Shown here: positions 15,381 to 19,422 of the stretch, one piece after another
Layout of the letters: every line of letters starts with the position of its first letter
Position numbering within the stretch: the stretch's first letter is position 1
Source of the DNA: Thermogemmata fonticola
GTDB lineage: Bacteria > Planctomycetota > Planctomycetia > Gemmatales > Gemmataceae
Length of the DNA: 64,000 nucleotides
Direction of reading: 5' to 3'
Assembly (NCBI RefSeq): GCF_013694095.1
Contig: NZ_JACEFB010000005.1
Span: 186,001-250,000, forward strand
Notes under the pieces: model-generated
What the model saw: the letters and a program-made list of their open reading frames with translations, nothing else
What the model was told of the DNA's origin: nothing
Databases searched by the model: none
Made by a program: the position numbers and the translations under genes

Positions 15381-16220
15381 ATGTCGATGCGACCATTCCT
15401 GATGCTGGCCCTCGCGGCGTTTACTCTGAGTAACCTCACCGCTTCGTGGCTCTTCGGACAACAGACCCTTCCCTCGCCTGTGCCAAAAGTTCCGCCTCTT
15501 CGTCCCGACATGGTGCAACGCATCCCACCTGAGGATTATCAGATGATGAAGGCCATTTTCCAACAGATGCTTGAGCAGGCCGCCGATAGCTCTCCAAAAC
15601 CCATGCCGCCCCAGAGACCGGCTAACCAACTGCCCATTCCCCGAACGCCAGAGCGCGGCACAGTTCCCATGAATCCTGTCTATCCTTTGAGCTGCCCCAT
15701 GGGTGCGTGTCCTGCCTGTTCACCGGCCTCCGTTCCTCCGCAAGCGGTGGATCGGTCCCAAACAGCCCCTCCTAAGGCCGACCTCCCCGTCCTGGGAACG
15801 TGGCAACGGAAAACAGACCTGCTCTCCTGCATCCTGCAAATCAAACCAGACCATCTCAGCCTGGAAATGGACATTCGCAACCCCAATCTGGAACCCATAA
15901 AAATCTATGTCCTGGCAGAATACATTATCCTCAAAGATCAGCGTACAATTCTATGCTACATTACCAATATCGACATCATCTCTTATAAGAGTATTAGACA
16001 AGATGGGTTGAAAGCATGGAAAGAGATCGGGAACATTCAACAGGCATTTGTGGAAACCGCCGTGGTGGCCAAAGTTGCACTCTATCAGGATGCTTTCGTG
16101 ATCAGTAGCTTGCGGCTGGCTGGCATGGACAACACAGAGATCGCTTCCTTCTTACACCACATGATCTGTGGCCGGTACGAACGCGTTGAGCTGACTAAGA
16201 CCGTCCCAGCAAACCGGTGA
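15381..16220 (+). CDS. Secreted protein of unknown function
   Basis: The protein has 279 residues. A signal peptide is clear (MRPFLMLALAAFTLSNLTASWLFG). A Pro-rich segment with three cysteines (CPMGACPAC) lies around 110-118, and a C-terminal region of mixed beta and helix includes LGTWQRKTDLLSCILQIKPD and LEMDIRNPN. I do not recognise a family. The gene lies between GluQRS (divergent) and the amidohydrolase (convergent), and a weak hairpin follows. ATG at 15381 or 15387 could start it. Real coding is supported by the signal peptide and the uninterrupted length. Confidence 0.7.
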   Translation: MSMRPFLMLALAAFTLSNLTASWLFGQQTLPSPVPKVPPLRPDMVQRIPPEDYQMMKAIFQQMLEQAADSSPKPMPPQRPANQLPIPRTPERGTVPMNPVYPLSCPMGACPACSPASVPPQAVDRSQTAPPKADLPVLGTWQRKTDLLSCILQIKPDHLSLEMDIRNPNLEPIKIYVLAEYIILKDQRTILCYITNIDIISYKSIRQDGLKAWKEIGNIQQAFVETAVVAKVALYQDAFVISSLRLAGMDNTEIASFLHHMICGRYERVELTKTVPANR

Positions 16221-16359: not shown

Positions 16360-17607
16360 TCATAATCGAAAGATCGTGCGCACGTTGTCATAGAGCAACT
16401 GTCGCCCCAGAGCGACAGCCTCCGTTTCGGAGAGCAAGCCGGGACGGACAAACTCCGCCGCCAACACCTCGGCCAAAATCTGCCGGTACATTCGATATTT
16501 CGGCAAGACGAATTCCAGCTTGTAGGCATCGGAGTAGTAACCGATCAATTTATTTTTGGGTACAGCAGTGATGCGCTCCGTCAAATCCTTCCGAATATAG
16601 GGTGGTGTGTTGGAATACCACCAATGACCATTGACTATCACATTGGGGAATATCCAAGAGTATGCCACCAATTCCTGATTCTGATTACTGGTTAGTACAG
16701 AGATGGGAAACAGTACCTCCGGGAAGGCGTTGAAGAGTTCCTGATACTGGATCAGGCTGGTGCGCTGGTCGAAGAGGTCTTGGCCTTGAAACACCCCGTG
16801 GCGATAGACACGCCGCTGCACACCGATCATGAGGTCGAAGGGGAGTTGGAAAGTGCGACAACATTCCGCGAGCAGCCAGAACAGGGCGGGAGCAAGGGCG
16901 GCGGAATCGGCTCGGCGCAGGGCGTTATCCAGCTCCGCATCACTTAGAGGGGCAGGGACAAATTGAGGCGGCAAGGAAATGGCGCAGGCTTTAGCTCCCC
17001 GATTCACAAATCGTTCCATCAAGGTCAGGAAAGCGCGACGGACACGGCCAGCATCTTCCGCCTCGATGCCAGTGCAAGCGGCCAGTCGCTGCCGCGTGTT
17101 CGGCTGGTGAAACTGAAAGACGAGAGTGTCGGTGCGCAAACAGGGGACATAAACGGTGGTGTCGAAGCCCTGCAACGGATCGTCAAATTCATTCGTGAGA
17201 AAGATTTTCTCCAGGCGAGTGCGCTGGCGGACCTCCGCCTCCCAGTGTAGCTGCTGGAAGACCCTCTCGGCAGTCTCGTAGAGCCAATCAGCATCGTTTA
17301 CTGTGACACGTTGTCCGGGAAAGTGCAAAAACGTTCGGGCAATCTCCACAAACCAGCGATACTGGGCAGTGTTGTCGTAATGACTCATGAAGCGGAGGAT
17401 TTCCCGCACACGCTCGCGGGAAGGAACTTGAGGTTGCAGGACTTGCTGGGACATGCCCGCAGAATGAGCCAATTCCGTGTAATAGTGGTAGCCCAGAATA
17501 TCCTCCAGGCTCCGAGCCACCGGTGATAAGGGATCGATGTGGGAATGTGGGTCAATGAGGGGAATTTCTTCCAGCCCCGCGAGGAGATCGGCAACCAGGG
17601 TGTCCAT
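16360..17607 (-). CDS. Uronate isomerase-like amidohydrolase
   Basis: The protein has 415 residues. The N-terminus has the metal site DPHSHID (about 19-25). Later parts resemble the glucuronate/galacturonate isomerase (UxaC) family: a VNGHWWYSN segment and IGYYSDAYKLEFVLPKY near residues 350-370. Family members isomerise hexuronates to ketouronic acids or act as hydrolases on related compounds; the exact substrate is not certain here and no uronate pathway genes adjoin. GCGGAGG lies five bases before the ATG at 17607. Upstream lies the C-tract-rich non-coding region. Confidence 0.75.
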   Translation of the reverse strand: MDTLVADLLAGLEEIPLIDPHSHIDPLSPVARSLEDILGYHYYTELAHSAGMSQQVLQPQVPSRERVREILRFMSHYDNTAQYRWFVEIARTFLHFPGQRVTVNDADWLYETAERVFQQLHWEAEVRQRTRLEKIFLTNEFDDPLQGFDTTVYVPCLRTDTLVFQFHQPNTRQRLAACTGIEAEDAGRVRRAFLTLMERFVNRGAKACAISLPPQFVPAPLSDAELDNALRRADSAALAPALFWLLAECCRTFQLPFDLMIGVQRRVYRHGVFQGQDLFDQRTSLIQYQELFNAFPEVLFPISVLTSNQNQELVAYSWIFPNVIVNGHWWYSNTPPYIRKDLTERITAVPKNKLIGYYSDAYKLEFVLPKYRMYRQILAEVLAAEFVRPGLLSETEAVALGRQLLYDNVRTIFRL

Positions 17608-17750
17608 AACAACCTCCGCAAAGCAGGTAAGAATAACAAGAGGCTTGAAGGAAAGTCTTACAATTTTCAGGAAGAAATTACAAAGGGGGTTTGGGTTTCG
17701 GCTTCACCAGGAGAACGTATGCCGGGAAGAAAAGGAAGATGTGCCAGGGG

Positions 17751-17775
17751 AAAAGCCACACCTCTGCGGCTTTTT
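17751..17775 (+). terminator. Hairpin with T-run in the C-tract region
   Basis: AAAAGCC (17751-17757) pairs with GGCTTTT (17768-17774) around a 10-base loop and ends in a T5 run. It could terminate a short + strand transcript, or act on both strands. Confidence 0.4.
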
Positions 17776-18063
17776 GTTCGAGGGAACCGCACAGGGCATG
17801 AATAGGGAACAGGTTTGGCACGCTCTCTGCACCACTATCACCCGTCCGCGATTCGCTCTCCCCCAGCGGATCGCGACTCAGCCTCCGGAAAGTGAAGTTG
17901 CTGTCCCCCCTCAAGCAACGACGCTATCCCCCAAGCGACCGGAGACTGATCCCAAGCGGTTCCGCTTCGTTTCCCCCAGAAGTGGAACCAAGGAGAGTTC
18001 CCCCCTCTCCTGAACGTTGTTCAATTCCATACTTTCTTTTCTTTCTGTCACACCTTCCCCCCT

Positions 18064-18096
18064 CCGCCGCCTTCCCCCGGGCGGCGGCTCTTTTTT
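18064..18096 (+). terminator. Strong Rho-independent terminator with no obvious gene upstream
   Basis: CCGCCGCC (18064-18071) pairs perfectly with GGCGGCGG (18080-18087) around an 8-base loop and is followed by CTC and a T6 run (18091-18096). The T-run makes it a + strand terminator, yet the nearest annotated + strand gene ends at 16220, with a minus strand gene in between. Confidence 0.7.
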
Positions 18097-18189
18097 CTTC
18101 CAGGCGACGGATTAGCTGTCTCGGTTCTCAGGTCTCCAACCTTCCGAATTGTCTACCAAATCCCAGCACCAAGGCTCAAAGGGGGCCGT

Positions 18190-19422
18190 TCACTTCCGGT
18201 TCTTCGCTTGCAGCGCCCATTCAAAAAATTGGGCGAGTAGTTCGTTGGCCTCCGCAGTGGGATCATGGGTCGGGCGATGGGTCATTGCGACCCGATGGGT
18301 CAAGCCGAGGAGTTGATTGACGGCCACGGAATGGACCAAGGCAGACCAGCGCTCTGGTGGGTCTTCCGCTCCGCCGGAGACGAGGAAGGGACGCGGGGCC
18401 ATGAGGGCATGCAGTTCGTGCAAATCTCGCTGATCAGCAATCAACTGCTTGTACGGACCAGTGCGGGGATTCTTTTCGCTGGGTACTCCTTGGGGGCGCT
18501 GTTTGGGCCGTCCTGGTTCGAATCCCAGATACCACCGTTCCCAATAATTGACATTTGGGCGTCGTTCGTCAAAGACGATTCCCGGATCAGACCAGGCTGC
18601 CGCGGCAAAATCGTCATACAAGCACGCGGCGAACATGGCCCACTTACCGCCGTAGGAATGCCCTACAATCCCAATCCGCCGGGCATCGACCTGTTTCATC
18701 CGTTGCAGGGCGCGGCAGGCATTAGCCGCCTCGTAAGCATGAAAAGCTAGCGGTTGCAAGCGGCATTGCTCCGCATTAGGATAATATGTTTCCGGCGGGC
18801 TTCCTAGAGAAAGCGCGACAAAACCGCGTTGCACAAGCAGCCGGGCATAATCCCGGTGCGGTCTCTTCCCTTCTCCAATCCCCGTCTTAGCATCGTAGAA
18901 GACCACGATCACCGCCGGATACACCCCTTGGCCCTTCGGTACCAGCAAGTAGGCATCGTCCGTCAGCCGTCCGGGTGCTGTCTCCAACCGCAGATGAAAT
19001 TGCTTGTAACTGCCTTTATCCTGCTGCTGAAGATATTCGATTTGGGGGTGGTCGAGCAGTGCCGGGGGGTCACCCAGCAGTTTCCACCAGTAACGGCGGA
19101 TCTGCTCGCGCCGACGGAGCCAATCGGCCGATGTCCGCACAGGGGAGCCATCATCGAACAGCAGCGGCGAGCGGTACTTCTCCGGGATAAGCTTGACGTC
19201 TGAAGGCGGGCGGAAAAAGGGAGCCAACGCTGGCGGAGGAGGACCGAGCGGATCAATCGCCTTCTTCTCCTCTTCGATCGTCTTACTGCTTCCCGCGGTG
19301 GAGATTCCCGATAGACCCACCATCAGCAAACCCGCCAGCCAGAGACTCGCTTTACCGTAACCCGCAATCCTACCTCGGTCGTGCCCGCCTACCGCCACTT
19401 TTGGTACCGCCACCTTCCCCAT
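18190..19422 (-). CDS. Secreted alpha/beta hydrolase (esterase-like)
   Basis: The protein has 410 residues. A basic N-terminus and hydrophobic segment (LWLAGLLMVGLSGISTAG) give an export signal. The nucleophile elbow is GHSYGGK near residue 255; an acid is plausible in VSGGAEDPPERW and the His in THRPTHDPTAEA near the end, giving a Ser-Asp-His triad. It resembles the dienelactone hydrolase and carbohydrate-esterase type hydrolases frequent in planctomycetes; the substrate is unknown. The start at 19422 is favoured over an upstream frame because GGGGGGAGG lies seven bases before it. OMP-like and esterase genes follow one another on this strand. Confidence 0.85.
   Translation of the reverse strand: MGKVAVPKVAVGGHDRGRIAGYGKASLWLAGLLMVGLSGISTAGSSKTIEEEKKAIDPLGPPPPALAPFFRPPSDVKLIPEKYRSPLLFDDGSPVRTSADWLRRREQIRRYWWKLLGDPPALLDHPQIEYLQQQDKGSYKQFHLRLETAPGRLTDDAYLLVPKGQGVYPAVIVVFYDAKTGIGEGKRPHRDYARLLVQRGFVALSLGSPPETYYPNAEQCRLQPLAFHAYEAANACRALQRMKQVDARRIGIVGHSYGGKWAMFAACLYDDFAAAAWSDPGIVFDERRPNVNYWERWYLGFEPGRPKQRPQGVPSEKNPRTGPYKQLIADQRDLHELHALMAPRPFLVSGGAEDPPERWSALVHSVAVNQLLGLTHRVAMTHRPTHDPTAEANELLAQFFEWALQAKNRK

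Follow-up and report, generated by a model that had tools for sequence, protein, structure and literature searches.

A conserved family of predicted structured UCCCCC-loop RNAs in Gemmataceae with a putative sigma-54 promoter

Between two minus-strand genes of Thermogemmata fonticola lies a conserved element predicted to encode a small RNA (sRNA) of ~255 nt, read from the + strand behind a sigma-54-type promoter and displaying UCCCCC tracts in its hairpin loops ("C-loops"). Sequence analysis of the window (the whole 64-kb stretch analyzed here, from a genome of 4.8 Mb) and of related genomes supports the conserved structure, the strand, the terminator, the promoter consensus, the upstream motif, and the family of homologues; that the RNA is transcribed, depends on sigma-54, and pairs with G-rich sites, and in which direction it regulates, is inferred only. 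That a real RNA is encoded at 17842–18096, a prediction made without transcript data, we consider close to certain. The best explanation of the whole, to which we assign a probability of about 0.62, is a sigma-54-driven, trans-acting C-loop sRNA that pairs with G-rich mRNA sites.

Features of the region, in window coordinates:
16360–17607, minus strand: divergent glucuronate isomerase-like (UxaC-like) metal-dependent hydrolase of 415 aa (NCBIfam PRK02925, E 4.7e-17; Pfam UxaC, E 1.3e-4; both matches below cut-off)
17657–17684, + strand: upstream motif CTTACAA-N12-AATTACAAA, proposed enhancer (UAS), conserved upstream of the promoter
17815–17830, + strand: putative sigma-54 promoter TTGGCACGCTCTCTGC, that is, TTGGCACG-CTCT-CTGC (−24 GG at 17817–17818; −12 GC at 17829–17830)
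17842–18096, + strand: predicted small RNA, ~255 nt (homologues by blastn and covariance model)
17844–17877, + strand: hairpin P1, loop CTCCCCC (fold; covariation in alignment A5)
17878–17949, + strand: branched stem P2 (CUCAG-CUCCGG / CCGGAG-CUGA), enclosing P2a and P2b (fold; changes on both sides in 8 of 12 pairs)
17897–17919, + strand: hairpin P2a, loop GTCCCCCCTCA (fold)
17922–17937, + strand: hairpin P2b, loop ATCCCCCA (fold)
17958–17989, + strand: hairpin P3, loop GTTTCCCCCA (fold; 11 of 11 model pairs covary, helices 1–2)
17991–18011, + strand: hairpin P4, GGAGAG-UUCCCCCC-UCUCC (fold; 6 of 8 pairs covary, helix 3), the best conserved hairpin of the RNA
18012–18063, + strand: pyrimidine-rich, mostly unpaired linker holding the sixth tract (18056; unpaired probability 0.99)
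18064–18097, + strand: intrinsic terminator P5, loop TTCCCCC, then CTCTTTTTTC (9 of 10 pairs covary, helix 4)
ending at 18190, minus strand: alpha/beta-hydrolase-like gene, the other flank of the region

Fold, conservation, and distribution of the predicted RNA

Seven TCCCCC tracts occur on the + strand (17859, 17904, 17927, 17972, 17999, 18056, and 18073), spanning 220 bases in which ~0.15 would be expected from the intergenic background of the genome (~0.7 per kb per strand). Across 800 kb of contig C1 of this genome, the densest cluster in a TCCCCC scan held five, within a low-complexity stretch. A preliminary description of the region had reported these tracts, with first spacings of 45, 23, 45, and 27 bases, and our positions match it; the helix-turn-like regularity that it read into them drifts among relatives, which retain loop order and stems. 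The GC stem and T6 run that it described are likewise present (CCGCCGCC-loop-GGCGGCGG at 18064–18087, then CTCTTTTTTC). The T-run is on the + strand, where the nearest preceding ORF ends at 16220, ~1.8 kb before the terminator, as had been noted; both flanking genes are on the minus strand, and no + strand gene was found that explains the terminator. Its AAGCGG-TT-CCGCTT hairpin fared less well: the palindrome exists (~17955–17968) but is not a conserved structure. We rejected it as a functional unit, since its loop has two bases and P3, whose 5′ arm is the right half of the palindrome, takes its place in the conserved fold.

The start of the RNA was placed, by inference, 12 nt downstream of the −12 C, and its end in the T-run. 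Its minimum free energy lies ~6 SD below dinucleotide shuffles (row L044), and predicted lengths across homologues are 202–269 nt (median 258.5). Our first fold statistics ended several RNAs early at an internal T-run; the loop and length figures given here come from a recomputation with correct ends. All seven window tracts are predicted to be unpaired (probability 0.85–1.00), six in hairpin loops and one in the single-stranded linker. Across homologues, 175 of 273 tracts of at least four C fall in hairpin loops of minimum-energy folds, and 90% of C within tracts are unpaired versus 29% of other C. Each RNA carries five to eleven tracts, and the stems vary freely whereas the loops are near-identical; the loops are therefore probably the working parts of the molecule. 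The intrinsic terminator (GC stem plus T-run) is conserved at the 3′ end, with 98.2% of cells paired in helix 4, and most Gemmata-group copies have a weaker T-run (CGTCTTTT). In the Gemmata-group copies, the stretch linking P4 to the terminator shows good conservation and no pairing (GAACCUUUCAGACAACACGUCCGUUCCCC); it is possibly a second, specific pairing site.

Covariation supports the fold in both halves. In the 3′ half, both sides change with pairing kept in 26 of the 29 model pairs across 34 elements, giving 131 double-change cells versus 26.4 in shuffles and 12–28 in slid versions; this alignment was fitted to the model structure and is hence biased toward it. The 5′ half, taken from a plain, unfitted MAFFT alignment, has changes on both sides at 16 of 30 pairs and 42 double-change cells, versus 15.0 in shuffles and 0–12 in slid registers. 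Loops remain UCCCCC while stems covary, and these compensatory changes were counted toward a noncoding nature. A protein-coding reading was rejected: The overlapping ORFs on the two strands (17537–18013, 17892–18320, and 17678–17914) match no Pfam family.

Loss of the stem in related genomes had been named in the preliminary description as grounds for refutation; the stems proved conserved. A congener (G001) shows 75% identity over window positions 17848–18096 (blastn, E 2e-39), a match to the 3′ part of the RNA occurs in another genus (G016), and family-wide blastn found the element in 15 genomes. A covariance model built on the 3′ half (R1) gave matches with E no higher than 0.01 in 36 of the 95 family genomes, with values from 5e-22 in T. 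fonticola itself down to 5e-41 in Gemmata relatives. After inspection 34 elements were convincing, in 32 genomes and 10 genera; by sequence comparison, the element is present in at least that many genomes and genera of the Gemmataceae. Public named records with the element comprise 13 contigs, from Gemmata sp. IIL30 and twelve metagenome-assembled genomes. Two further genomes (G010 and G008) hold diverged copies that keep the layout and were missed by R1; the RNA family thus extends beyond what the model detects. Outside the Gemmataceae, nothing clear emerged from a class-wide sample of 298 genomes, the few matches having E ~0.001 or worse. Weak R1 matches (G000:C7:37800, G065:C2:313220, G028:C29) and out-of-family matches (G289, G172, G222, G126) were rejected as chance-like or at noise level; none, where inspected, had both promoter and loop array.

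The common layout, with small departures, runs TTGGCACG-N4-[CG]TGC[AT], ~25 bases, and then hairpins with C5–6 loops; on the 3′ side follow a conserved GAGA-N-UUCCCCCCUCUC hairpin, the CCGCCGCC/GGCGGCGG C-loop hairpin, and the T-run. Two genomes of genus g32, G116 and G112, each hold two elements; the second copies (L052, G116:C550; L053, G112:C516) are diverged versions of the window RNA type without a UxaC-like neighbor. Separately, the G016 intergenic region beside the RNA contains a ~30-bp repeat, CCTACGGTTGAGGGCGTCGAANCCTCNTCAGG, three times (L006:970–1150).

Putative promoter, upstream motif, and neighboring gene

The sequence TTGGCACGCTCTCTGC fits the −24/−12 pattern (TGGCACG-N4-TTGC type, with invariant GG and GC at a fixed distance), and this element is kept in nearly every homologue at a nearly fixed distance before P1. 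In 400 kb of three genomes, its strict consensus was matched 0, 1, and 0 times, and the single match belongs to another C-loop RNA. The T. fonticola genome encodes RpoN (one Sigma54_DBD gene) and has nine strong matches to enhancer-binding ATPases (PF00158). By consensus match alone, TTGGCACG-N4-NTGC is assigned as a sigma-54 promoter; dependence of the RNA on sigma-54 is inferred in the absence of expression data, and we predict it with high confidence.

The upstream motif, also written CTTACAA...ATTACAAA, is recognizable in most homologues ~130–150 nt upstream of the −24 element, a judgment made partly by eye; many relatives have GTCTTACAACGCCCGGCAAGAATTACAAAC, and the whole T. fonticola genome contains one match. 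Its half-motif consensus CCGGYAAGRNTTRCAA gave eight sites in eight genomes searched, all upstream of C-loop RNAs and typically ~145 bp before the promoter, versus none for a reversed control. We infer that the motif would act as an enhancer for an as yet unidentified sigma-54 activator.

The motif also lies near the start of the UxaC-like gene and may therefore serve both gene and RNA. That gene is adjacent and divergent at 25 of the 32 loci, as well as in G010 and G008. In G001, promoter, motif, and RNA persist without any UxaC-like match in the assembly, and in G069 they persist with the gene ~23 kb away; a role for the motif as uxaC promoter only was rejected, since it stays with the RNA in both genomes. 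Immediately upstream of the UxaC-like gene of G069 (L083; G069:C19 near 88631–89869) is an ORF that looks integrase-like by eye, which suggests that a mobile island split the pair there.

Proposed mode of action and competing explanations

Under the favored reading, sigma-54 RNA polymerase would be activated from the upstream motif by an enhancer-binding protein of unknown identity and would transcribe the ~255-nt trans-acting RNA from the + strand as far as the intrinsic terminator P5. The folded RNA would expose six UCCCCC tracts in hairpin loops and one in a single-stranded linker, and the C-loops would pair with GGGGGA-like G-rich stretches near the ribosome-binding sites of several mRNAs, altering translation. 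Several loops could serve several targets or raise affinity, and silencing of message sets with G-rich sites would be the probable outcome. That base pairing of the C-loops is the main mode of action is itself an inference, which we favor only somewhat.

The distribution of GGGGGA offers limited support. Across 457 genes of T. fonticola, the word occurs 16 times in the 20 nt directly preceding start codons versus 5–8 times per upstream 20-nt bin, and in one Gemmata-group genome 6 times versus 1–5 per upstream bin, gene starts being taken from a simple home-made caller. The general Shine-Dalgarno sequence of the T. fonticola genome consists of GGAGG words, not GGGGGA. Because the GGGGGA enrichment (~2.7-fold) is no stronger than that of ordinary GGAGG (~3.3-fold), it may reflect only ribosome binding; it is consistent with base pairing, is no proof of it, and identifies no individual target.

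The main alternative to pairing is protein titration, in which the same sigma-54-driven RNA would act as a sponge whose UCCCCC loops capture a C-tract-reading RNA-binding protein and so relieve its targets. Five to eleven tracts per RNA, near-identical loops on freely varying stems, and related RNAs with loops, promoter, and upstream motif in common all fit such a role. Precedents exist: CsrB and RsmZ titrate CsrA, and CrcZ sequesters Crc/Hfq. CrcZ and CrcY are moreover sigma-54-dependent sRNAs that sequester a regulator (PMC6296734). However, G-rich mRNA is the pairing partner of those C-rich sRNA loops that have been studied to date, and start codons are preceded by an at least modest enrichment of GGGGGA. 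We also know of no C-tract-binding post-transcriptional regulator in these bacteria. Titration remains possible but on present evidence less likely than pairing.

The remaining explanations do not involve a + strand RNA. The minus strand also folds and would show GGA in each loop, so a CsrB-like minus-strand RNA with GGGGGA loops binding CsrA can be conceived; yet promoter and T-run both face the + strand, no terminator call on the minus strand fell inside the element or shortly past it, and such a transcript would run into the UxaC-like gene. G-U cells also exceed A-C cells, 29 to 15, as expected for a + RNA, although the cells are not independent. We regard a minus-strand function as very improbable.

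The preliminary description had proposed either an unannotated small RNA or a set of protein-binding sites. Homologues, covariation, a conserved promoter on the same strand, and a conserved terminator support the small RNA. A DNA-binding-site array, or a leader or cis-element of the divergent UxaC-like gene, could draw on the regular spacing of the first five tracts and on the frequent adjacency of that gene, but we give it hardly any credence: An array would not account for stems that covary around constant loops, the spacing is not retained, the RNA is encoded opposite to the gene and upstream of it, and promoter, motif, and RNA persist in G001 and G069 without the gene beside them. A chance cluster in C-rich intergenic DNA next to a stray terminator, for which one could cite only that TCCCCC is fairly common in this genome, is refuted by the homologues, conserved across genera with covariation and covariance-model E-values of 5e-22 to 5e-41.

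Sister RNAs, known systems, and significance

A TCCCCC cluster scan of a Gemmata-group genome found another predicted RNA, distinct from the first but likewise combining this type of promoter with C-loops and a terminator. The combined pattern of promoter plus C5 matched in 48 of 95 family genomes, with ~90 matches listed (some overlapping) versus 9 for the reversed pattern; 17 of 20 inspected loci had C-tracts with a terminator, or C-tracts alone at a contig end, and three were chance-like. Several Gemmata genomes hold two to four different predicted sigma-54-driven C-loop RNAs each, of at least three types. RNAs of the second type (L228 at G063:C1:158550 +, L224, L231, L238, L251) are ~150–165 nt long, read CGTCGAAAACGGTTC-UCCCCC-AGAACC..., have a strong C-loop terminator, and share the upstream motif CCGGTAAGAGTTGCAA. 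Those of the third type (L225, L229, L230, L232, L233, and L237, all Gemmata-group) are ~120–130 nt, with CGACGAACACNAATCGGG..UUCCCCC.GGCC, and in several copies GTAAGNCTTACAA precedes the sigma-54 promoter. A candidate second C-loop RNA in T. fonticola (L252, G000:C2:611933 +) was rejected: Its sigma-54-like promoter TTGGCATG-N4-CTGC leads into a likely leader with a Shine-Dalgarno sequence and the start codon of a short ORF (ATGATCTCGACACG...), without C-loop hairpins, and it is perhaps a sigma-54-driven small protein.

A scan of 4,227 Rfam families over the 64-kb window gave no match at the gathering threshold. The 6C RNA model (RF01066) reached 18.8 bits (E 5.4) against a cut-off of 47 bits, so the element is not a member, and rli32 also scored far below its cut-off. 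The 6C definition asks for a pair of stem-loops whose loops contain about six C; C5–6 loops are present here, six on hairpins plus one tract in the linker, in a different overall fold. The mycobacterial 6C/B11 RNA is similar in being a short RNA that exposes C-rich hairpin loops, and differs in being actinobacterial with two loops, versus seven or more tracts here. To our knowledge 6C has no link to sigma-54. In Mycobacterium abscessus, B11 represses eccB4, whose 5′ UTR carries a six-G tract, and single-loop mutants leave repression intact, i.e., the loops are redundant (PMC10470900). Stable stems with apical C-rich loops, as here, are also a feature of sX13 of Xanthomonas, which has three loops, belongs to a different phylum, and shows no sequence relation in the Rfam scan. 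Its exposed loops are known to act on G-rich sites close to start codons, and its targets are enriched for such motifs; it is Hfq-independent, and one loop contains UCCCCCU, found also in Helicobacter HPnc5490 (PMC3771888). One property of C-loop sRNAs of the 6C and sX13 type, C-tracts exposed in apical loops, is present in the predicted fold.

Other multicopy or multihairpin systems resemble the element in part. The Qrr sRNAs of Vibrio are likewise several sigma-54-dependent sRNAs per genome, under a common activator, but are ~100 nt long, Hfq-dependent, and without a C-loop array. CsrB/RsmZ display one short motif on many hairpins, but that motif is GGA on the transcribed strand, whereas the + strand loops here are UCCCCC. 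CrcZ/CrcY of Pseudomonas are also sigma-54-transcribed sRNAs with several copies per genome, whose repeated motifs are A-rich and bind Hfq/Crc, in contrast to the UCCCCC hairpin loops here. Their transcription involves an enhancer-binding activator at upstream subsites (PMC6296734). The literature searched, which left subscription journals mostly out of reach, contained no report of this RNA family and no characterized small regulatory RNA in Planctomycetes. The C-loop sRNA type is already known; new here are the many loops, the predicted sigma-54 control, and the sister RNAs.

Because a Gemmata isolate carries the element, the RNA is open to experiment; the candidate enhancer motif provides a route to the activator, and the sister RNAs form a ready list. 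For Planctomycetes, this would mean a post-transcriptional regulator that is conserved and has a promoter of defined class. A broader proposal, which we consider doubtful at present, is that the sigma-54 regulon of Gemmataceae consists largely of several structured UCCCCC-loop RNAs per genome, several sharing an enhancer motif, that would jointly titrate one unknown C-tract-binding protein; if true, Planctomycetes would have a global post-transcriptional system of the Csr or Crc kind. Returning to the pairing sRNA that we favor, independent arrival at a C-loop design in Actinobacteria, Xanthomonas, Helicobacter, and Gemmataceae would point to convergence, with G-rich mRNA sites as a general regulatory code that is here coupled to sigma-54 signaling.
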